The notes under the pieces are model-generated. The model ran no database searches. It was not told the DNA's origin and saw only the letters and a program-made list of their open reading frames with translations. This document shows positions 18,175 to 33,672 of a stretch of 38,123 bases of DNA, piece by piece. Origin of the DNA: a bacterium (GTDB lineage: Bacteria > Margulisbacteria > Marinamargulisbacteria > JAHFDA01); contig JAHFDA010000025.1 in assembly GCA_023249225.1 (NCBI GenBank), positions 1-38,123 of the forward strand, given 5' to 3'. The position numbers and the translations under genes were made by a program. Numbering within the stretch: position 1 is the stretch's first letter; every line of letters starts with the position of its first letter.

Positions 18175-19056
18175 ATGGTCAGCCAACAAGTCAGCCTGCG
18201 TGCTCATGTGGTGCTTGAGGCGCTGCCTTACATCCGCAAGTTTTATGGCAAGACTATTGTCATCAAATACGGCGGGGCGGCCCAGATTGACCTTAACCTG
18301 GCCAAAGAGTTTGCCCGTGACGTGGTGCTCTTAAAATATGTGGGCATGAACCCGGTGATCGTACACGGTGGCGGGCCAGAGATCACCCGTTTCATGGAAA
18401 AAATGGGAAAAAAATCTGAATTCGTCAATGGCGTGCGCGTCACCGATGCTGAAACCGTAGAAATGGCTGAAATGGTCTTGTCCGGAAAAATCAGTAAAAG
18501 CATTGTCAGCATGATCAATCATGCCGGCGGACGCGCCGTCAGTTTAAGCGGTAAAGACGGAAACCTGATATTGGCCAAGCGCCTGCGCGGCGGTCGCAAA
18601 GACATGGGTTTTGTAGGTCAGATCACCGGCATCAACCCGGCCATCATTGAATCGCTGGATAAAAGTGGTTTTATTCCGGTCATTTCGTCCATTGCCGCCG
18701 GCGAAGAAGCCGAGTCGCTCAATATCAACGCCGACGAGGCTGCCAGCGCCATTGCGGTTGCGCTTAAGGCCATTAAACTGATTTATCTTACAGACGTCGA
18801 TGGCATCCAGGACAAAGACGGCGAACTGCTGGCACGCCTGTCACTTTCGGATACCAAGGCGCTGATCCGCAAAAAAGTCATTGTCGGCGGCATGCTGCCC
18901 AAGGCCAAATGTTGTATGGAAGCGGTGGCCAACGGCGTGATGTCGGCGCATGTGATCGATGGACGCATCATGCACAGCGTGCTTTTAGAACTATTCACCG
19001 ACACCGGTATCGGAACCATGATCAAGCCGGGAATTACGCCCCATGCCCAAGTTTAA
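18175..19056 (+). CDS. argB: Acetylglutamate kinase
   Basis: 293 residues of the amino-acid kinase fold, phosphorylating N-acetylglutamate with ATP. It shows VIKYGGAA near residue 28, VIVHGGGPEI with the glycine-rich substrate loop, SLSGKDGNL, VISSIAAG, NINADEAASAIA with the catalytic Asp, and YLTDVDGI. The N-terminal helix (about residues 1-20) is of the type found in arginine-inhibited hexameric kinases, so feedback inhibition by arginine is possible. It overlaps argF by 14 nt, implying coupling. Confidence 0.96.
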   Translation: MVSQQVSLRAHVVLEALPYIRKFYGKTIVIKYGGAAQIDLNLAKEFARDVVLLKYVGMNPVIVHGGGPEITRFMEKMGKKSEFVNGVRVTDAETVEMAEMVLSGKISKSIVSMINHAGGRAVSLSGKDGNLILAKRLRGGRKDMGFVGQITGINPAIIESLDKSGFIPVISSIAAGEEAESLNINADEAASAIAVALKAIKLIYLTDVDGIQDKDGELLARLSLSDTKALIRKKVIVGGMLPKAKCCMEAVANGVMSAHVIDGRIMHSVLLELFTDTGIGTMIKPGITPHAQV

Positions 19057-19972
19057 GCATCTGGTTTCGCTCCATGCGCTGAAACCCGAGCAAATCCACG
19101 AAATTCTTACTTTGGCAGCGCGGTTTAAAATCGAACTCAAACAAGGCAAGGAACATGCCTTGCTCAAGCAAAAAACTCTGGCGATGATTTTTGAAAAACC
19201 TTCGACGCGCACGCGGGTCAGTTTTGAAGTTGGTATGGTGCAGCTGGGAGGTCACGTGATCAACTTGCGTCCGGATGATATCCAAATGGATGGGCGCGAA
19301 CCCGTCTCGGATATTGCCCGTACCCTCTCGCGTATGGTGCAGGGCATCATGCTACGCACCTTTGCCCACGAGACCATCGAACGCTTTGCCGAGTTTGCCG
19401 AGGTACCGGTGATCAATGGGCTGTCAGACTATGAGCATCCCTGCCAGGCCCTGGCAGACATGCTTACGCTCATTGAGCACTTTGGGCACCTCGATGACAT
19501 TGTGCTGACTTATGTGGGCGACGGAAACAACGTGGCGCATTCATTAATGTTTGCCGCCGCCAAGGTGGGGCTCAAGTTGCGCGTGTGCACGCCCAAGGGT
19601 TACGAGCCCAGCCGCAAGGCGCTTAAAGCCCTGGGAACGCTTAAAAATAAGCGTCGCGGAATCGATATCGAACTCTTGCGTGATCCCAGGCAAGCCGTGG
19701 CTGGCGCACAGGTGGTTTATACCGATGTGTGGGCCAGCATGGGGCAGGAAGCCGAGTCCGCGCAGCGGGAGCGTGATTTTCGGGCGTATCAAGTGAATGC
19801 GGCCTTGTTAAAACACGCCGATCCAAAATGTCTGGTGATGCATTGCCTGCCAGCCCACCGTGGCCTTGAAATTACCGCCGCAGTGATTGACGGACCGCAG
19901 TCGATTGTGTTTGACCAGGCTGAAAACAGGTTGCATGCGCAAAAAGCGGTGTTGGCGCTGTTGATGTCGTAG
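19043..19972 (+). CDS. argF: Ornithine carbamoyltransferase
   Basis: 309 residues that make citrulline from ornithine and carbamoyl phosphate. Carbamoyl-phosphate motifs are FEKPSTRTRVSFE and HPCQALAD; the ornithine side has VYTDVWASMGQE and the catalytic HCLPAHRG. Length is normal. The start inside the end of argB (ATG at 19043) keeps the conserved N-terminus (FKHLVSLHAL). Followed 9 nt later by argG. Confidence 0.96.
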   Translation: MPKFKHLVSLHALKPEQIHEILTLAARFKIELKQGKEHALLKQKTLAMIFEKPSTRTRVSFEVGMVQLGGHVINLRPDDIQMDGREPVSDIARTLSRMVQGIMLRTFAHETIERFAEFAEVPVINGLSDYEHPCQALADMLTLIEHFGHLDDIVLTYVGDGNNVAHSLMFAAAKVGLKLRVCTPKGYEPSRKALKALGTLKNKRRGIDIELLRDPRQAVAGAQVVYTDVWASMGQEAESAQRERDFRAYQVNAALLKHADPKCLVMHCLPAHRGLEITAAVIDGPQSIVFDQAENRLHAQKAVLALLMS

Positions 19973-19981
19973 GAGGATCCA

Positions 19982-21187
19982 ATGTCTGTAAGAGTGAAAA
20001 AAGTTGTGCTGGCTTATTCTGGAGGATTAGACACCTCTGTCATTATCCCTTGGCTGATCGAAAACTACGGCTGCGAAGTCATTGCCTATGCTGCCGATCT
20101 GGGACAGGGTGACAAGGGTTCTGAAATTATCAAAAAGGCCAAACGCAGCGGGGCCAGCAAAGCCTTTTATGAGGATGTCACCGCAGAATTTGTGCGTGAT
20201 TATTGCTTTCCATGTTTGCGCGCCCAAGCCAAATACGAAGGCAAGTACCTGCTGGGCACATCTATGGCCCGGCCACTGATTGCCGAAAAACAGGTGCGTG
20301 TGGCCTTGCGTGAAAAAGCCGATGCGGTGGCGCATGGGGCCACTGGCAAGGGCAACGACCAGGTGCGTTTTGAACTGACCTACATGTCGCTGGCCCCACA
20401 TTTAAAAATCATTGCGCCGTGGAAAGATGACAAATGGACCCTCAACTCACGCGAGGAGGCCATCGACTATGCCCATGCGCGCGGCATTCCGGTACCGGTG
20501 ACCAAGAAAAAAATCTACTCCGAAGATGGCAACCTGTGGCATCTCTCGCACGAAGGCGGCGAGCTTGAGGATCCAGCGCGCGAGCCGCTCGACCGCGTCT
20601 ATAAAATAAGTTCACCCCTAAGCAAGGCACCTGGCAAACCTGAATACGTGACGGTGGAGTTTAAGTCCGGTACGCCGGTGGCGGTTAACGGAAAGCGCTT
20701 AAAACCAGTCGAACTCCTCAAGCAGCTCAACGCGCTGGGCGGCCGTCACGGTGTCGGTCAAATCGACATGGTCGAAAACCGGCTGGTGGGCATCAAGTCG
20801 CGCGGGGCTTACGAGACGCCCGGCGGGACGATTCTGTATGAGGCGCACGAAGCCCTGGAACGCCTGGTGCTGGATAAAACCACTTATCAGATCAAGCAAC
20901 CGCTTTCACTTAAGTACGCCGAACTGGTATACAACGGTCAATGGTTTTGCCGCGCCAAAAATAGTCTCGATGTTTTCTTTAACAAGGTAAACGAACGGGT
21001 CACCGGTACGGTACGCGTTAAACTCTTCAAAGGCCGGGCCACAGCCGCCGGAGCCAAGTCACCTTATTCGCTTTACGATCAGGGCCTGGGTGGTTTTTCT
21101 AACGTTAAACTTTATGACCAAAAAGATGCCATTGGGTTTATCCGACTTTTTGGTTTGCAGCAAAGGCTTGAGAATCAGATTAGATAA
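19982..21187 (+). CDS. argG: Argininosuccinate synthase
   Basis: 401 residues that join citrulline and aspartate using ATP. The PP-loop is VLAYSGGLDTSVIIPWL near the start; ARPLIAEKQV, HGATGKGNDQVRFE and YEDGNLWHLSHEGGELEDP-like blocks follow, all characteristic. A strong Shine-Dalgarno AGGAGG sits 6 nt before the ATG. In many genomes argH follows directly; here it is nearly 15 kb away, separated by the CRISPR-Cas island and two unknown genes. Confidence 0.97.
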   Translation: MSVRVKKVVLAYSGGLDTSVIIPWLIENYGCEVIAYAADLGQGDKGSEIIKKAKRSGASKAFYEDVTAEFVRDYCFPCLRAQAKYEGKYLLGTSMARPLIAEKQVRVALREKADAVAHGATGKGNDQVRFELTYMSLAPHLKIIAPWKDDKWTLNSREEAIDYAHARGIPVPVTKKKIYSEDGNLWHLSHEGGELEDPAREPLDRVYKISSPLSKAPGKPEYVTVEFKSGTPVAVNGKRLKPVELLKQLNALGGRHGVGQIDMVENRLVGIKSRGAYETPGGTILYEAHEALERLVLDKTTYQIKQPLSLKYAELVYNGQWFCRAKNSLDVFFNKVNERVTGTVRVKLFKGRATAAGAKSPYSLYDQGLGGFSNVKLYDQKDAIGFIRLFGLQQRLENQIR

Positions 21188-21207
21188 AGCCACACGCGGT
21201 CATCTTT

Positions 21208-23853
21208 ATGAGTACGGGTTATTTTCGATATTGGGGCAAAGCTGATAGAGAAGATCCGTCTCAATTTCACCTATTGGTTTATCATAGTCTCGATGTCGCT
21301 GCGGTCGGGCGAGTGTTACTGGAAGGTCAGCCAAAACTGCTTAGAAATCTTTCCAATCAATCGGGTATTAGACCTGAGCGCTTAATCGATTGGATTACTT
21401 TTTTGCTTGCTCTCCATGACATTGGCAAGTTTGCAGACAGTTTTCAAAATCTTATTCCAGATCTATTTAATCAGCTTCAGGGTAGAGCTTTTGATACGGT
21501 ATATCGACAACGCCATGATACCTTGGGGTTTCGGTATCTTGATCAATATTTGATAAAAGCTATTTCACGTGAAGAATCGAGTGATTTACGGGATCTGCTT
21601 TTGCCTTGGCTGAATGCGGTTTGTGGCCATCATGGGCAACCTCCCAAAAATGATACGGATCCCAGGCCCTTAGGCAAAGATTTTCCAGCAATGATACTGA
21701 CCGATGCTAATAGTTTTGTAGCATTTGTTCGGGATAAATTTTTACCCGATGGTTTTCCGTTTGGCGTCGAAGAGTATCGTTTGTTTTGCGATCGCTTTCC
21801 GCGAATTTCATGGTTAGTCGCCGGGTTGGCGGTGGCTTCTGATTGGATTGGATCAAATAGCAGTTGGTTCCGATATTGTAAGGATCAACAAGATCTAAAT
21901 AGTTATTGGCAAACCAAGGCCTTACCTAACGCATTAACGGCTGTTAATAAAAGCGGTTTTATTCCTGTCGTGGCACAAGAATATTTAAGTTATCGACGTA
22001 TCTTTCCGGGCATTGCCCAGCTTACCCCGTTACAAGAACATTCCGAAAATTTGAAAATAACGGATACCCCTGGCTTGTTCATTTTGGAAGAGGTGACGGG
22101 TGGCGGAAAGACGGAAGCGGCCTTCATATTAGCCCAGCGCCTAATGGCAAAGGGTTTGGCAGATGGAATCTTTATGGCCCTGCCTACCATGGCGACCGCA
22201 AATGCAATGTATAAGAGAGTTCGTGCTATTTATAAAAAATTATTTCAAGACGATGCCGATCCATCGTTAGTTCTGGCCCATAGTTCGGGGCCCATGGTTT
22301 TAAAAATGGAGAAAAATACCCGACTAGATCATGGTTATGGAGGCGATGAAAGTAGTGCTACACAGGATTGCGCGGCATGGTTTTCGGACAATAGAAAAAA
22401 AGCCCTACTGGCGCATGTAGGTGTAGGTACTATTGATCAGGCTTTGCTTAGCATCCTGCCGGTTAGACACCAATCCTTGCGCTTACTTGGTTTATACGGA
22501 AAGGTTCTTGTGGTTGACGAGGTGCATGCCAACGATGATTATGTGCACAAGCTGCTGTGTTCACTATTAAAGTTTCATGCATCGTTTGGGGGCAGTGCCA
22601 TTTTGCTCTCGGCTACGCTTCCACAACAAATGCGCAAGGAATTGCTAAAGGCCTATGCCGAAGGCCGGCGATTACCAGCCCCTGAAGTGATGGAAGTTAA
22701 GTATCCCTTGCTTACATATTATTCCGAAGGTCAAATTTGCGAGCATGCAGTTGCAGCGCGGCGAGAGATGTCTCGTGAGGTGCGAGTAAATCTGATTTAT
22801 ACAGAGCAGCAAGTATATGATGCTATTCAGGCTGCCTTGAATAAAGGGCACTGCGTTTGCTGGGTTCGCAACACGATTGTCGATGCGCTGCAGGCATATC
22901 GCTATTGGCAAACTCGCATGGAACTTGAATTATTAACCTTATTTCACTCCCGCTTTGCATTAAGTGACCGCTTGGAAATTGAAAATAAGGTTTTGGATTA
23001 TTTTGGACCAGATAGCGCCAGTAACGTGCGAAAGGGCAGATTGCTAATTGCCACACAGGTGGCTGAACAGTCGTTAGACTTAGATTTTGATTTTATGGTC
23101 ACAGATCTTGCTCCGATTGATCTTGTTATTCAAAGGGCTGGTCGTTTGCAGCGCCATGCACGAGGCAATCGCACGCCAGTTTTGGCTGTCTATACGCCCA
23201 TGCCGGAGCCCGAAGCTAAATCAGACTGGTACAAAAAGCATTTTCCAAAGGCCGCCAGGGTGTATCCGCATCACGGGCAACTATGGCTAACTGCTCGGTG
23301 GTTATGCGAAAGAAGATCTTTTCGTATGCCCGAATATGCAAGGGATATGATCGAATTTGTGTTTTCCGAGTCGTCTTACAATGCGGTTCCGCCAGATCTT
23401 CAAATGACTGAAGATAAGTCGCAAGGGGCAGATCAGGGTAAAAAAAGTATGGCTCGTTTCAATAGTCTTGATTTGAATCAGGGGTATAAACAAACACTAA
23501 CCCATTGGCAGGATGACGCCTTTGCACCAACCCGTTTGGGAGAACCTACCGTAACGCTGCGTCTGGCGCGTTGGCAGGATAATCGCCTGGTGCCCTGGAT
23601 TGAAGTGCATGATGAGTATGGTTGGCAGCTTTCTCAACTGAGTGTTAGAAAATATTATGCAGCGGCAGAATATGTGGGTGAACATGCAGTGGCCTTTGAT
23701 GAGGCAAGGCGGAGTATGAGAGATCAGGGCAAATATGTGCTACTTGTGCCTTTGATCGAAAAGAATGGAATTTGGTGCGGGAGCGTTCTTAATTGCGAGG
23801 GTGCAGTGGTGGACGTTGTATACACCGTTAAGTTTGGTGCCGAGTTTGTATAA
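21208..23853 (+). CDS. cas3: CRISPR-associated helicase-nuclease Cas3 (type I-E)
   Basis: 881 residues, the effector nuclease recruited by target-bound Cascade. The N-terminal HD nuclease domain has YHSLDVAAVG (His near 26), ALHDIGKFADSF (HD near 70) and VCGHHGQPP. The SF2 helicase follows: Walker A EEVTGGGKTEAAF near residue 297, DEVH near 437, LLSATLP near 470, and motif VI VIQRAGRLQRHAR. The C-terminal domain is of the type I-E kind. It starts 20 nt after argG with no obvious promoter of its own, so read-through from argG is possible. Base composition is more AT-rich than the arg genes, consistent with transfer. Confidence 0.96.
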   Translation: MSTGYFRYWGKADREDPSQFHLLVYHSLDVAAVGRVLLEGQPKLLRNLSNQSGIRPERLIDWITFLLALHDIGKFADSFQNLIPDLFNQLQGRAFDTVYRQRHDTLGFRYLDQYLIKAISREESSDLRDLLLPWLNAVCGHHGQPPKNDTDPRPLGKDFPAMILTDANSFVAFVRDKFLPDGFPFGVEEYRLFCDRFPRISWLVAGLAVASDWIGSNSSWFRYCKDQQDLNSYWQTKALPNALTAVNKSGFIPVVAQEYLSYRRIFPGIAQLTPLQEHSENLKITDTPGLFILEEVTGGGKTEAAFILAQRLMAKGLADGIFMALPTMATANAMYKRVRAIYKKLFQDDADPSLVLAHSSGPMVLKMEKNTRLDHGYGGDESSATQDCAAWFSDNRKKALLAHVGVGTIDQALLSILPVRHQSLRLLGLYGKVLVVDEVHANDDYVHKLLCSLLKFHASFGGSAILLSATLPQQMRKELLKAYAEGRRLPAPEVMEVKYPLLTYYSEGQICEHAVAARREMSREVRVNLIYTEQQVYDAIQAALNKGHCVCWVRNTIVDALQAYRYWQTRMELELLTLFHSRFALSDRLEIENKVLDYFGPDSASNVRKGRLLIATQVAEQSLDLDFDFMVTDLAPIDLVIQRAGRLQRHARGNRTPVLAVYTPMPEPEAKSDWYKKHFPKAARVYPHHGQLWLTARWLCERRSFRMPEYARDMIEFVFSESSYNAVPPDLQMTEDKSQGADQGKKSMARFNSLDLNQGYKQTLTHWQDDAFAPTRLGEPTVTLRLARWQDNRLVPWIEVHDEYGWQLSQLSVRKYYAAAEYVGEHAVAFDEARRSMRDQGKYVLLVPLIEKNGIWCGSVLNCEGAVVDVVYTVKFGAEFV

Positions 23854-23868
23854 AATTAAAGGCAAATT

Positions 23869-23958
23869 GATGGAATCCCCACACCTGTGGGGAACAGGTT
23901 TTCGCCAAGCGATGTCAATAATCGCCACTCGGGACATCCCCATAATCATGGGGGACAT
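23869..23958 (-). ncRNA. Predicted crRNA-like regulatory RNA (CreR-like mini-array)
   Basis: On the minus strand two degenerate CRISPR repeats flank a 32-nt pseudo-spacer. Pseudo-repeat 1 (23930-23958) matches the array repeat at 20 of 29 positions and ends ATGTCCCG, 6 of 8 to the crRNA handle ATGAACCG. Pseudo-repeat 2 (23869-23897) matches 20 of its first 23 positions but has lost the handle, which would not be needed there. Both keep the Cas6e stem: CCCCAC/GTGGGG in repeat 2, and CCCCAT/ATGGGG in repeat 1, a compensated pair change. The repeat-to-repeat distance is 61 nt, identical to the array. The pseudo-spacer (23898-23929) targets the adjacent cas promoter. No third copy is seen. Confidence 0.8.
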
Positions 23959-23978: not shown

Positions 23979-24013
23979 TTCATAGAGTTAATTTATCATT
24001 AATCTCCACTCTT
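23979..24013 (-). promoter_or_regulatory. Predicted Cascade-binding site of the crRNA-like RNA
   Basis: On the minus strand the PAM AAG (24011-24013) is followed by AGTGGAGATTAATGATA. The pseudo-spacer begins AGTGGCGATTATTGACA. Positions 1-5, 7-11, 13-15 and 17 match. Mismatches up to 17 are at 6, 12 and 16; type I-E Cascade leaves every sixth base unpaired, so 6 and 12 should not matter. Beyond 17 there is almost no match, which fits binding without cleavage. The PAM overlaps the -35 box of the plus-strand promoter. Confidence 0.8.
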
Positions 24014-24018
24014 TACAA
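23990..24018 (-). promoter_or_regulatory. Possible promoter of the crRNA-like RNA
   Basis: On the minus strand TTGTAA (24013-24018) and TAAATT (23990-23995) are 17 nt apart, each 4 of 6 to consensus. Its -35 shares bases with the divergent Cascade promoter, and the Cascade site covers it, so the RNA would also repress itself. Confidence 0.4.
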
Positions 24019-24040
24019 ATTATTTGTTTGTAGTTATTAT
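24012..24040 (+). promoter_or_regulatory. Promoter of the Cascade operon (TTTACA-17-TATTAT)
   Basis: TTTACA (24012-24017, 5 of 6) and TATTAT (24035-24040, 5 of 6) are 17 nt apart. Transcription would start near 24047, about 5 nt before the small ORF at 24052. Its -35 overlaps the predicted Cascade site. Confidence 0.7.
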
Positions 24041-24051
24041 CCTACTACGTA

Positions 24052-24177
24052 ATGGTAGAAAGTTTACTTCTATTGATTAAAGATGCTGTATCGGCGGGTA
24101 ATCTTGCTCAACCTCAGGCCCTTGTAGCACTTGCGCTATTGGTAGCCTTGGTGGCTGTATTTAAGATTAAGGCTTGA
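24052..24177 (+). CDS. 41-residue hydrophobic membrane peptide, toxin-like
   Basis: A short gene between cas3 and cas8e. The product has an N-terminal helix (MVESLLLLIKDAV), a short polar turn (SAGNLAQPQ) and one transmembrane stretch (ALVALALLVALVAVF) ending in basic KIKA. It is the first gene behind the predicted Cascade promoter, and its TGA lies 6 nt before the cas8e ATG, so cas8e may depend on its translation. There is no Shine-Dalgarno; the expected transcript start is about 5 nt before the ATG. The size and layout recall small membrane toxins of type I toxin-antitoxin systems, but I recognise no family. Alternatives: a leader peptide for cas8e, or a chance ORF. Confidence 0.6.
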   Translation: MVESLLLLIKDAVSAGNLAQPQALVALALLVALVAVFKIKA

Positions 24178-24183
24178 TTATTT

Positions 24184-25734
24184 ATGAACCTGATTGACGA
24201 TCCTTGGATCCCGGCACGTCGCAAAAATGGAAATATTGAACGTATTGCGCCGTGGCAAATTGTTGAAGGTACGGGGGATAACGAGATTATCGAACTGGCT
24301 GCTCCGCGTCCCGATTTTAACGGTGCGCTGATTCAGTTTTTAATTGGCTTATTGCAAACAACGTATGCGCCGCATACACCCAAGGAGTGGCGTGACAAGT
24401 TGGAAAACCCACCATCCTCCCAAGAACTGAAATCTGCGTTTGCACCGGTTGTACATGCTTTTGAATTGGATAGCGATGGGCCACGGTTTATGCAGGATCT
24501 AACGATGGAGGTGAATTATGAGGATGCTAACCCTATTGGTAGTTTGTTTATTGAAGCTCCTGGAGAACAAACCCTAAAGCAGAATAAAGATCACTTTGTG
24601 AAGCGTGACCAAATTAACCAAATTTGTGAAGCATGTGCTGCTGCTGCGATTTATACCTTACAAATCAATGCACCCAGTGGTGGTGCTGGTCATCGTACGG
24701 GTTTGAGAGGTGGTGGACCACTGACGACCCTTATTAGGGGAGTTAATTTATGGCAACTTGTTTGGCTGAATGTTTTAGAAGAAAAAGATTTTCTGGCTAA
24801 AAGTGGTAACCACGAAAAAGATGCGTTTGAAGCAAAGTTTCCGTGGCTGGGAGCTACGCGTACGAGCGAAGGAGATAAGGAGACGACACCCGAGGATGTC
24901 CATCCGGTTCAAAATTATTGGGCAACTCCTAGGCGGATACGACTGTTATCTCCACTTGGCTCAGGTGTCTGTGATATATGCCTAAAACATCAACCACGTT
25001 TATATGATAAGTATGTTGCGCAGAACTATGGCGCTAATTACAAAGGGCCGTGGCAGCATCCATTGTCGCCTTATTTTATTGATTCTGATGGAAAGACTAG
25101 CGCAATCCATTTGCAACCTGGTGGTATGCGCTATAAGCATTGGCTAGGATGGATTTTGGATGGCGCTTTAAGTACGAAAGGGCAAAAAATATCGGCACGC
25201 GTTGTTTCGCGGTACCGGTATGATACGGAAAAAAAACAGACCGTCTGGGCCTTTGGTTATGACATGGATAACATGAAGGCGCGCTGTTGGTATGAGGGAA
25301 TCTTTCCATTAATTCATATTAATCCTGAAATGCTAGAGGAATATCGATATTTGGTTAAAATTCTTATTGAATCTGCCGAGCTTGCGGTTAAGGAAACCCG
25401 AGGGGCAGTTAAAAAAGCTTGGTTTCGTGAGGGTGTAGAAGTTAGGGGAGATATGTCGCGGGTTGATGTTTTTTTTTGGAACCAAACCGAAGCCAGGTTC
25501 TATGACGAATTAAAAAACTTGCGAGATAACTTAGAGTCCGGAAATAAAAATAATAAGCCGCTACTGGATCAATGGTCAAAATACTTACTCGATGTATCCT
25601 TATCCATATTTGATGATTTATCCCAAACCGGTTCCTTTGATGCAGTAGACCCGGCCCGTATTGCCAAGGCCATGAATAGTTTGGAGAGAAATTTGAGAAG
25701 CAAAAAATTTCGTGCGATTTTGGATCTATCATGA
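24184..25734 (+). CDS. cas8e: Cascade large subunit Cas8e (Cse1/CasA)
   Basis: 516 residues, the PAM-reading large subunit of type I-E Cascade. The start MNLIDDPWIPARR and the ELAAPRPDFNGALIQFLIGLLQT block are diagnostic of Cse1. The middle region has PSGGAGHRTGLRGGGPLTTL, the loop that contacts the PAM area in this family. The C-terminal four-helix bundle follows. The ATG comes 6 nt after the stop of the small membrane-peptide gene. The last 4 nt overlap the next gene (ATGA). Codon use is AT-rich, like the rest of cas3-cas6e. Confidence 0.95.
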   Translation: MNLIDDPWIPARRKNGNIERIAPWQIVEGTGDNEIIELAAPRPDFNGALIQFLIGLLQTTYAPHTPKEWRDKLENPPSSQELKSAFAPVVHAFELDSDGPRFMQDLTMEVNYEDANPIGSLFIEAPGEQTLKQNKDHFVKRDQINQICEACAAAAIYTLQINAPSGGAGHRTGLRGGGPLTTLIRGVNLWQLVWLNVLEEKDFLAKSGNHEKDAFEAKFPWLGATRTSEGDKETTPEDVHPVQNYWATPRRIRLLSPLGSGVCDICLKHQPRLYDKYVAQNYGANYKGPWQHPLSPYFIDSDGKTSAIHLQPGGMRYKHWLGWILDGALSTKGQKISARVVSRYRYDTEKKQTVWAFGYDMDNMKARCWYEGIFPLIHINPEMLEEYRYLVKILIESAELAVKETRGAVKKAWFREGVEVRGDMSRVDVFFWNQTEARFYDELKNLRDNLESGNKNNKPLLDQWSKYLLDVSLSIFDDLSQTGSFDAVDPARIAKAMNSLERNLRSKKFRAILDLS

Positions 25735-27125
25735 AATCTCCTAGCCGAAAAGAAAATCAAAATCTGGAATGGAAAGAGATTTGGCGGGACGAGTATCTTA
25801 AATGGGTTTGTGGTTTTGCCAATGCCGAGGGTGGCACGCTGATTATAGGTAAAAATGATAAAGGCCTAACGGTTGGAATAGAAAATGCCAAGGAACTTTT
25901 GGAGCTTTTGCCGAATAAAACCCGCGATCTGCTTGGTATTTTGGTTGATGTCAATCTTCGCAGGTCGAACGCTAAGGAATCCGTTGAAATCGTGGTCTCT
26001 GCATACCCTAACCCGATCAGCTACCGGGGTGAGTACTATTACCGCAGCGGTAGTACCAATCAGGCCCTAAGAGGATCCGCCTTGGATCGGTTTTTGTTAC
26101 GCAAACAGGGCAGGCACTGGGATGATGTCCCCATGCCTTCTTTTAAGCCGCAGCATTGTAGTGCAAATGCTTTAAAACTTTTTAAACAAAAAGCCAAGCA
26201 AAGCGGGCGCATGTCTGATGCTGTGCTAAAAGACGGTCGTGAGTTTCTGTTTGAAAATTTGGAACTAGTCGATACCCATGGGCTAAGGCGGGCTGCTTGC
26301 CTGCTTTTTTCTGATCATCCTCAAAAATATTTTGCTGGTTCATGGATCAAGATTGGATACTTTGCTTCTAACGATGACCTACGTTATCAAGATGAGGTAA
26401 ATGGAAATTTGTTTGAGCAGATCGAAAAGGCTATGGATCTACTGCAAACCAAATATTTAAAAGCCTACATCACCTACCAAGGCATACAGCGAGTCGAAAA
26501 CTTTCTCTACCCATCAGATGCTTTGCGCGAGGCCTTGATCAACGCTGTTGTCCACAAGGACTATGCCAGCGCAGTTCCCATACAGATTAGCGTATACGAA
26601 GATAAGATTTGCCTTTGGAACCCTGGGCAGCTTCCAGACGGCTGGACGATGAAGCGTTTTTTAGGCAAGCATCCTTCCAAGCCCCATAACCCGCTTCTGG
26701 CCAATACCTTTTTTAGAGCAGGTTATATAGAGGCTTGGGGGAGAGGTATTGATAAGATCAAAAAAGAGTGCCAGGAGCTTGGAATTCCGAAGCCAATGTA
26801 TGACTTTGAGATGTCGGGCCTGATGATTACCTTTAACGCGAACCCAGATCATATAAAGGCTGCCGGTTCACAGACTGCTGGGAGCGTAAAAACTTCGGTA
26901 GAAACGCGGGTAGAAACGCGGGCAAAAACGCCGGTGAAAATATTGCAATTGTTGCAAAGTCATCCAGAGATGACCTTGGCACAAGTCGCTGCAAATATTT
27001 CTAAATCACTTAGCGCAGTTGAGAGGGCCAGTTCAAAACTCGTCAAAGATGGCCAGCTAAAATATGTCGGCCCCCAAAAAGGCGGGCATTGGGAAGTCAG
27101 CAAAAAGGAGGTAAAGGATGTCTGA
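25731..27125 (+). CDS. AlbA_2/Schlafen-like ATPase with C-terminal winged helix, inside the cas operon
   Basis: 464 residues, not a known Cascade subunit. The N-terminal AlbA_2 domain (about 10-90) shows LEWKEIWRDEYLKWVCGFAN and GGTLIIGKNDKGLTVGI. A GHKL-type ATPase domain of the HATPase_c_4 kind follows (YPSDALREALINAVVHKDY; LWNPGQLPDG; WGRGIDKIKKEC). After a Thr/Val/Glu linker made of tandem repeats comes a winged-helix domain (MTLAQVAANISKSLSAVE). Such proteins are seen as DNA-binding regulators and in phage defence. It overlaps cas8e by 4 nt and cse2 by 8 nt, so it is an integral, co-translated part of the operon. Its function here is unknown. Confidence 0.9.
   Translation: MKSPSRKENQNLEWKEIWRDEYLKWVCGFANAEGGTLIIGKNDKGLTVGIENAKELLELLPNKTRDLLGILVDVNLRRSNAKESVEIVVSAYPNPISYRGEYYYRSGSTNQALRGSALDRFLLRKQGRHWDDVPMPSFKPQHCSANALKLFKQKAKQSGRMSDAVLKDGREFLFENLELVDTHGLRRAACLLFSDHPQKYFAGSWIKIGYFASNDDLRYQDEVNGNLFEQIEKAMDLLQTKYLKAYITYQGIQRVENFLYPSDALREALINAVVHKDYASAVPIQISVYEDKICLWNPGQLPDGWTMKRFLGKHPSKPHNPLLANTFFRAGYIEAWGRGIDKIKKECQELGIPKPMYDFEMSGLMITFNANPDHIKAAGSQTAGSVKTSVETRVETRAKTPVKILQLLQSHPEMTLAQVAANISKSLSAVERASSKLVKDGQLKYVGPQKGGHWEVSKKEVKDV
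26897..26932 (+). repeat. 12-bp tandem repeat in the AlbA_2 gene
   Basis: Two perfect copies of GGTAGAAACGCG and a third degenerate copy encode the VETR-VETR-AKTP linker before the winged helix. In-frame slippage here could change linker length. Confidence 0.8.
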
Positions 27126-31647: not shown

Positions 31648-33672
31648 CCGTTCCCCACGCGTGTGGGGATGAACCGCACTTTGGCGACGAAAAACACACA
31701 CGCGATATCCGTTCCCCACGCGTGTGGGGATGAACCGTCTGTAGTAAACGTGCGGCTGCCACGGGTTAGCCGTTCCCCACGCGTGTGGGGATGAACCGCC
31801 ACAGATACCGGGCGCTGGTAAATCTCCTTTCCGTTCCCCACGCGTGTGGGGATGAACCGAAAGGAGAAAATAAAATGTGTCCATTAAATAGCCGTTCCCC
31901 ACGCGTGTGGGGATGAACCGCTCCACGGGCCTTTAGTGTGGTGTGTGGTGTTCCGTTCCCCACGCGTGTGGGGATGAACCGTGGTCTTTTGCTAAAATTT
32001 TCATGTTATTCCCCCGTTCCCCACGCGTGTGGGGATGAACCGTCCGGTGATCTAAGTCACGCCTTACCTGACGACCGTTCCCCACGCGTGTGGGGATGAA
32101 CCGTAGAAAATATGTTTTATGTGGGGGCAACCCCTCCGTTCCCCACGCGTGTGGGGATGAACCGCAATTTAAACTCGACAACGGGCTGTATCTGTGCCGT
32201 TCCCCACGCGTGTGGGGATGAACCGTTTTTTACCTGCTTTCCTTGCGTGTTTAGTGTCCGTTCCCCACGCGTGTGGGGATGAACCGCAGCCTTAAATCAA
32301 TTCACGGGTACAGAAAATCCGTTCCCCACGCGTGTGGGGATGAACCTGAGCATTGGTTAGATGAGGATGCCATTAAGCAAGCCGTTCCCCACGCGTGTGG
32401 GGATGAACCGGCGAGGTGCCATTGCGTGGAGCGTAGCGAAACCCGTTCCCCACGCGTGTGGGGATGAACCGAATCTAACTAACTCGTTAGTGAATCTTAT
32501 CTACCGTTCCCCACGCGTGTGGGGATGAACCGCCGTTTGCCTCCATTTGCATGGCACAGAATACCCGTTCCCCACGCGTGTGGGGATGAACCGCCCGAGA
32601 AAATCGTCGTTGCTGTTTGGGGAATCCGTTCCCCACGCGTGTGGGGATGAACCGTGTTGCATTGCAACACTGTTGCGCTTCTAACCCCGTTCCCCACGCG
32701 TGTGGGGATGAACCGAAAATTTTTCTATCTGAGAGGAAAGGCGACCCCCGTTCCCCACGCGTGTGGGGATGAACCGGTCATGTTATTCACCTACCTTTAT
32801 TGTCACTTCCGTTCCCCACGCGTGTGGGGATGAACCGTAGGCAAATGATGGTCAATAAACGTAGTAAGGCCGTTCCCCACGCGTGTGGGGATGAACCGCC
32901 CAAAACGTACAACCTGTTTCACAGGTCACACCGTTCCCCACGCGTGTGGGGATGAACCGAAAGGAGAAAAAAAAATGAACACAAAAACCGACCGTTCCCC
33001 ACGCGTGTGGGGATGAACCGCCAACGAGTTTCTAACCAAGACCGGCACAACCCCGTTCCCCACGCGTGTGGGGATGAACCGGACAGTGTTATTTTTATCG
33101 CGAAATATCTAGGCCGTTCCCCACGCGTGTGGGGATGAACCGAGGCTGAATTCCCGCCGCCGCATGGCGGCGCACCGTTCCCCACGCGTGTGGGGATGAA
33201 CCGAAAAAGCGTTGGAGACGGCGCTAGAGTTAGCGCCGTTCCCCACGCGTGTGGGGATGAACCGCCTTGACCCTTCTACCCTTAGTGTTTGTTCCCCCGT
33301 TCCCCACGCGTGTGGGGATGAACCGGCACAAGATCAACACAAAATAATGCTGGACGCCCGTTCCCCACGCGTGTGGGGATGAACCGCGATTTACCCCCAT
33401 CAGGTCAGGTCGCCAAGCCCGTTCCCCACGCGTGTGGGGATGAACCGCGCGAGGAAACCGGCTTTATGTCGGGCCTGTGCCGTTCCCCACGCGTGTGGGG
33501 ATGAACCGATCGGCGGGAACCGTGCGTACCTGATCGACTGCCGTTCCCCACGCGTGTGGGGATGAACCGAAAACTGAAAAAATCATCGTAGATAGAGGCC
33601 ACCGTTCCCCACGCGTGTGGGGATGAACCGACGCAATTATGTAGCAGTAAATGCTATGCGCTCCGTTCCCCA
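31648..33672 (+). CRISPR. Type I-E CRISPR array: 33 full repeats, 33 spacers, truncated end repeat
   Basis: The 29-nt repeat reads CCGTTCCCCAC, loop GCGT, then GTGGGGATGAACCG, with a 6-bp stem. I counted 33 full copies and a final piece (CCGTTCCCCA, 33663-33672). The period is 61 nt throughout (32-nt spacers) except spacer 12 (32348-32381), which is 34 nt and follows the only variant full repeat I noticed (last base T instead of G). The leader is on the left next to cas2, so new spacers enter there and the array is transcribed on the plus strand. Full repeats are nearly perfect, indicating an active array. Plus- and minus-strand ORFs across it are artefacts of the repeat. Confidence 0.98.

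Follow-up and report, generated by a model that had tools for sequence, protein, structure and literature searches.

The interval between cas3 and cas8e of one type I-E CRISPR-Cas locus raises the question of why a degenerate pair of CRISPR-like repeats should lie there, facing away from the cas genes. Regulation is one answer, as permanent expression of cas genes carries a risk of autoimmunity and permanent silence leaves the cell unprotected. We analyzed a bacterial sequence of 38,123 nucleotides (JAHFDA010000025.1), hereafter the window, which contains a complete type I-E locus made up of cas3, cas8e, a Schlafen/AlbA-HATPase gene, cas11e, cas7e, cas5e, cas6e, cas1e, cas2e and an array. The gap between cas3 and cas8e measures 330 bp, and the principal features of the locus are:

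21208..23853, plus strand: cas3.
24184..25734, plus strand: cas8e, first in order among the Cascade genes of the putatively repressed operon.
31648..33634, plus strand: genuine type I-E array with 33 repeats, the source of competing crRNAs.

The array repeat is CCGTTCCCCACGCGTGTGGGGATGAACCG and its handle is ATGAACCG. Two array spacers (31859-31891 and 32959-32991) have nearly identical starts (AAAGGAGAAAATAAAATG, AAAGGAGAAAAAAAAATG), which resemble the ribosome-binding site and start codon of related target genes. The gene at 25731-27125, with SLFN_AlbA_2, HATPase_c_4 and winged-helix domains, is inserted between cas8e and cas11e and overlaps the cas8e stop. The stretch 18175-21208 includes argG, which belongs to an arginine-biosynthesis run, and the cas3 start follows 20 bp after this gene; cas3 may therefore be co-transcribed with metabolic genes and may escape control by a guide RNA.

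The element in the gap is composed of three parts:

23958-23930, minus strand: R1, the 5' degenerate repeat, ATGTCCCCCATGATTATGGGGATGTCCCG, with a stem preserved via a compensated pair and ending in the handle ATGTCCCG.
23929-23898, minus strand: the spacer (guide) of 32 nt, AGTGGCGATTATTGACATCGCTTGGCGAAAAC.
23897-23869, minus strand: R2, the 3' degenerate repeat, CTGTTCCCCACAGGTGTGGGGATTCCATC, with a seven-pair Cas6e-type stem preserved and the handle lost.

The original prediction had placed two CRISPR-like repeats 61 nt apart at 23869-23958, on the strand opposite to cas and around a 32-nt spacer, and these coordinates were confirmed, the repeats being each identical to the array repeat at 20/29 positions with starts separated by exactly that distance. 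Its finer structural claims were likewise borne out: the R1 handle is mostly preserved (2/8 positions differ from the array handle), R2 retains the Cas6e stem without a handle, and one R1 stem pair is changed on both sides from C-G to T-A. The outermost R1 stem pair is broken (C-A, versus T-A in the array). Folding of the entire RNA in silico gave a structure only modestly better than those of shuffled sequences (z -1.77), with part of the guide in a hairpin. Under relaxed rules, a comparable repeat pair was found in 15/810 shuffled upstream regions; a PAM-flanked seed match of at least 11 beside such a pair was found in 0/810.

A search of the window with the 5' end of the spacer returned one outstanding site, on the minus strand from 24010 downward and with AAG in front, which is the canonical type I-E PAM. 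The features of this site and its surroundings are:

24011..24013, minus strand: PAM, AAG.
24010-23994, minus strand: target, protospacer positions 1-17, AGTGGAGATTAATGATA, mismatched to the guide only at positions 6, 12 and 16.
24012..24040, plus strand: sigma-70-like promoter towards cas8e, TTTACA-N17-TATTAT (10/12, a consensus match only), whose -35 element overlaps the PAM.
24018-23990, minus strand: candidate weak promoter for the guide RNA, TTGTAA-N17-TAAATT with TG, speculative, overlapping both the cas promoter and the target.

Guide and target are identical over positions 1-15 except at 6 and 12, and they agree at 14/15 scored positions; of 17/32 identities overall, 14 fall in positions 1-17. 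In type I-E Cascade every sixth position is flipped out of the crRNA-DNA duplex, 6 and 12 among them (PMC5904413). The corresponding pattern, AGTGGNGATTANTGA, has exact matches in the 2.83-Mb genome only at this target and at the spacer itself, and about 2e-7 AAG-plus-13 matches would be expected in the gap. The genuine array spacers (n=32) reached at best 10/15 scored matches in the gap, versus 14 for the mini-array spacer. The sigma-70-like promoter was the sole good hit of a consensus scan of the cas3-cas8e gap; with one found and 1.4 expected, the consensus match is not significant alone and becomes credible because of its position beside the target. The guide's own candidate promoter is weak by consensus.

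The same arrangement recurs in related loci. One cas8e scan yielded 80 loci, in which the cas3-cas8e gap was located by cas3 similarity; it reaches or exceeds 250 bp in 27 loci, one of which is the window, and stays below 165 bp in the remaining 54. Every one of the 27 loci with the longer gap, window included, carries a mini-array aimed at its own gap (26/80 related loci, those with a gap below 120 bp having been scanned by fixed-spacing rules only). A profile scan at fixed spacing identified 9 mini-arrays, that of the window among them; all run opposite to cas and have a PAM-flanked seed match of 11-14/15 scored positions in their own region, that of L068 containing one in-seed mismatch. A rule-based scan added L044, L054, L060 and L061; the last three, from Methylomonas, are almost the same and do not count as independent cases. 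The fixed-spacing scans (60-62 nt) missed arrays with 49-51-nt spacing and some shifted stems (L051, L050, L055, L042, L043); these were recovered by a hairpin scan with flexible spacing, which brought the total to 24/27 plus Escherichia coli. L059 came from the fixed-spacing scan, and L020 and L057, missed by the flexible scan, were read by eye. In a later check, L020 proved to match at 13/13 positions with AAG, and L057, with the PAM AAA, is the weakest of the 27 loci.

Guide sequences differ per lineage, and each fits the gap of its own locus. When AAG was made a requirement and 13 positions were scored, the mean own-region match was 12.1/13 (28 loci including E. coli). When spacers and regions were swapped, the mean fell to 6.4/13 and 1/736 swaps reached 11. 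Two loci failed this strict AAG test through their PAM, namely L069 (ATG) and L057. The R1 stems compared in 15 loci have pairs 2-6 kept in 15/15, through up to five pair types. A short class (L076, L085, L040, L041, L079, L031 and L082) has spacers of 20-22 nt and a repeat spacing of 49-51 nt; the shortfall of about 12 nt relative to normal spacers equals two six-base Cas7 units, which suggests a smaller Cascade. The original prediction had looked to related loci for its 61-nt spacing and its stems, and it survived this comparison, amended by the 49-51-nt class beside a spacing of 60-63 nt. Among 56 relatives of the window genome, none of them closer than class, cas8e was found in two. In an annotated Photobacterium type I-E record, cas8e does not follow cas3.

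The match profile was compiled from 24 loci in which sites were picked solely by PAM and positions 1-5, 7 and 8, so that the profile elsewhere is not imposed by site selection. Positions 10, 11, 13 and 14 match in 24, 23, 24 and 23 loci, respectively, and positions 9, 15 and 16 in 18, 19 and 15. Positions 6 and 12 match in 6 and 7, which is chance, and matching is near chance from position 17 onward. This profile is the signature of type I-E Cascade reading the guide, and because it ends near position 16, pairing stays short of the more than 18 bp that E. coli requires to interfere or prime.

The layout, stems, target, PAM, pairing pattern and recurrence can all be read directly in the sequence, and they argue strongly for a CreR-type guide gene that serves Cascade-mediated autorepression of cas, a reading that we hold with high confidence. 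From these features we infer transcription, processing by Cas6e, loading and binding of Cascade, repression, feedback and a physiological role, as follows. A minus-strand transcript would run from R1 through the spacer to R2, possibly from the weak promoter-like site at 24018-23990, which bound Cascade would cover as well. Cas6e would cut both repeat stems and release a crRNA-like RNA of about 61 nt with the 5' end AUGUCCCG, consisting of the R1 5' handle, the 32-nt guide and the R2 3' hairpin, and this RNA would assemble with Cascade. Through the AAG PAM and about 13 bp in positions 1-15, the complex would bind over the -35 element of the cas8e promoter and block RNA polymerase. Because pairing ends at about position 17, Cas3 would not be activated, and the chromosome would be neither cut nor used in priming. 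In E. coli, the AAG PAM plus 5 bp are enough for Cascade binding, and interference and priming need more than 18 bp (PMC5904413); measured against that figure, the pairing in the window is too short for interference. As a counterpoint, local expression was unchanged at Cascade-bound E. coli sites, which were mostly short seed matches and not 13-pair promoter sites (PMC5904413). The outcome would be negative feedback: free Cascade would turn down the operon that encodes it, and this repression would ease whenever Cascade is scarce, is taken up by crRNAs of the array or is inhibited by an anti-CRISPR. The crRNA-like, cas-regulating RNA of the original prediction is thus supported by the target within the cas8e promoter, with its AAG PAM and seed, and by the recurrence of the layout in relatives.

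Among the other explanations, the one that survives best concerns a small open reading frame downstream of the promoter:

24052..24177, plus strand: open reading frame for a 41-aa microprotein with a single transmembrane segment, MVESLLLLIKDAVSAGNLAQPQALVALALLVALVAVFKIKA, between the promoter and cas8e.

The guide might act as a CreA-type antitoxin that mainly represses this microprotein, a membrane toxin freed on loss of Cascade. Open reading frames that encode 36-64 aa, including a single hydrophobic stretch, occupy the promoter-cas8e interval of the window and of 11 other guide-bearing loci (L043, L057, L020, L037, L050, L041, L054, L060, L061, L063 and L084), and CreTA and protein-toxin variants are already known. 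Between the Methylomonas loci L060 and L061, 16 codon differences in the microprotein are synonymous and 2 non-synonymous, which marks it as a real gene. However, many loci with a guide (L018, L030, L044 and L068 among them) yielded no such microprotein, although their guides likewise target the cas8e promoter; our search returned no family match for it, and its promoter also serves cas8e. We therefore consider an antitoxin function unlikely. The wider proposal that mini-array and microprotein together form a CRISPR-guarded type I-E addiction module, with guide-loaded Cascade keeping both cas8e and the putative toxin low, is doubtful to the same degree. If it were true, loss or inhibition of Cascade would free the toxin, and the cas operon would contain a protein toxin in the form of this microprotein.

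Far less probable is that the hairpins serve as a cas3 terminator or belong to an antisense RNA to cas3. R2 does begin 15 bp past the cas3 stop with a strong predicted hairpin, and a cas3-directed role has been proposed for anti-Pcas of E. coli (PMC10011333). However, no T-run terminator was found in the region, and neither function accounts for the spacer length, the PAM or the seed; the terminator was rejected on these grounds. An additional antisense effect on cas3, alongside the guide role, is compatible with the data. A functionless remnant of a decayed CRISPR array, to which the mere 20/29 identity of each repeat might point, was rejected as hardly credible, since it is contradicted by own-promoter pairing with the flipped-base pattern in 27 loci, by the compensated stems and by the retained R1 handle and R2 stem. 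Equally implausible is an incidental promoter match, in which the guide would serve immunity to some mobile element that carries the seed of the promoter by coincidence. Cascade often binds seed matches on the E. coli chromosome (PMC5904413), but here the lineages share the architecture and differ in their guides, each of which fits the gap it comes from.

The reading as a CreR-type guide gene has precedents. In 2023, Shmakov et al. reportedly described crRNA-like mini-arrays in which, as in the window, two repeat-like sequences flank a spacer with partial complementarity to a cas promoter, that of cas8 especially; their experiment is said to have been carried out in type I-F. The original prediction knew of no such form in type I-E, which did not hold: a 2026 review (PMC13131331), on the basis of Liu et al. 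2023 (Cell Host Microbe), describes cas-regulating RNAs that mediate autorepression in types I-B, I-E and V-A via partial promoter complementarity, so this kind of element is already known, type I-E included. CreR is further described as sensing crRNA abundance (PMC12948488). The window element resembles CreR in being a mini-CRISPR inside a cas locus with two repeat-like elements of the resident system and a guide-length spacer, in combining a PAM with PAM-proximal pairing to a cas promoter (here AAG plus 14/15, overlapping the predicted -35), and in the matching of guide and own promoter region across relatives; it differs in being a prediction from sequence. CreA of CreTA (Li et al. 2021, Science) is likewise a degenerate mini-array that guides Cascade to a promoter by partial pairing, but it represses a toxin gene, whereas the promoter in the window serves cas8e with a microprotein open reading frame in between. 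Racr and solitary repeat units (PMC10651486) are stand-alone, Cas6-processed mimics of CRISPR repeats, much as the window element would be. Racr, however, is a single viral repeat without a guide, whereas the window has two repeats and a guide in a host cas locus and is not a lone repeat on a mobile element.

The same design is present in E. coli K-12 (NC_000913.3), whose type I-E system has been studied more than any other, in the cas3-casA gap and opposite to cas (L100 5354-5570, equivalent to 2884353-2884569):

2884481-2884509, opposite cas: R1, ACCTTCCCTACTTAAGTAGGGATAAACCG, with the exact E. coli handle and a full stem.
2884510-2884540, opposite cas: spacer of 31 nt, TTATTGGTCTTATTATC.
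2884541-2884569, opposite cas: R2, TCATTCCCGAAGTTATTTGGGATTTGCAG.
2884356-2884372: target, AAG-TTATTCGTTTTATTATT, with mismatches at 6, 9 and 17, lying 154 bp from the spacer.

This target sits at a promoter-like TTGCAG-N17-TATTGT with the same geometry as in the window. The region is present in 1126/5426 complete E. coli genomes; across four diverged variants, the element changes at spacer positions 12 and 28 and at target position 17, and R1 and R2 are unchanged. A second E. coli type I-E variant (L105) has a short gap in which no mini-array was found. According to two reviews (PMC7074321, PMC10011333) that report Pul et al. 2010, the anti-Pcas promoter lies just downstream of cas3 on the strand opposite to cas and yields an RNA of 150-200 nt; the reviews describe it as H-NS controlled and give its role as unknown. 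The K-12 sequence at the mapped site of anti-Pcas has the mini-array design of the window. We infer that the anti-Pcas RNA carries this guide, and the design may explain the promoter.

If the E. coli case has not already been reported, the question of what anti-Pcas does can be addressed directly in a laboratory strain. The 27 loci offer a natural readout of type I-E Cascade binding without cutting, in which about 13 pairs are used and positions 6 and 12 are ignored. A guide that lets Cascade measure itself would solve the dilemma of whether cas genes should be on or off.
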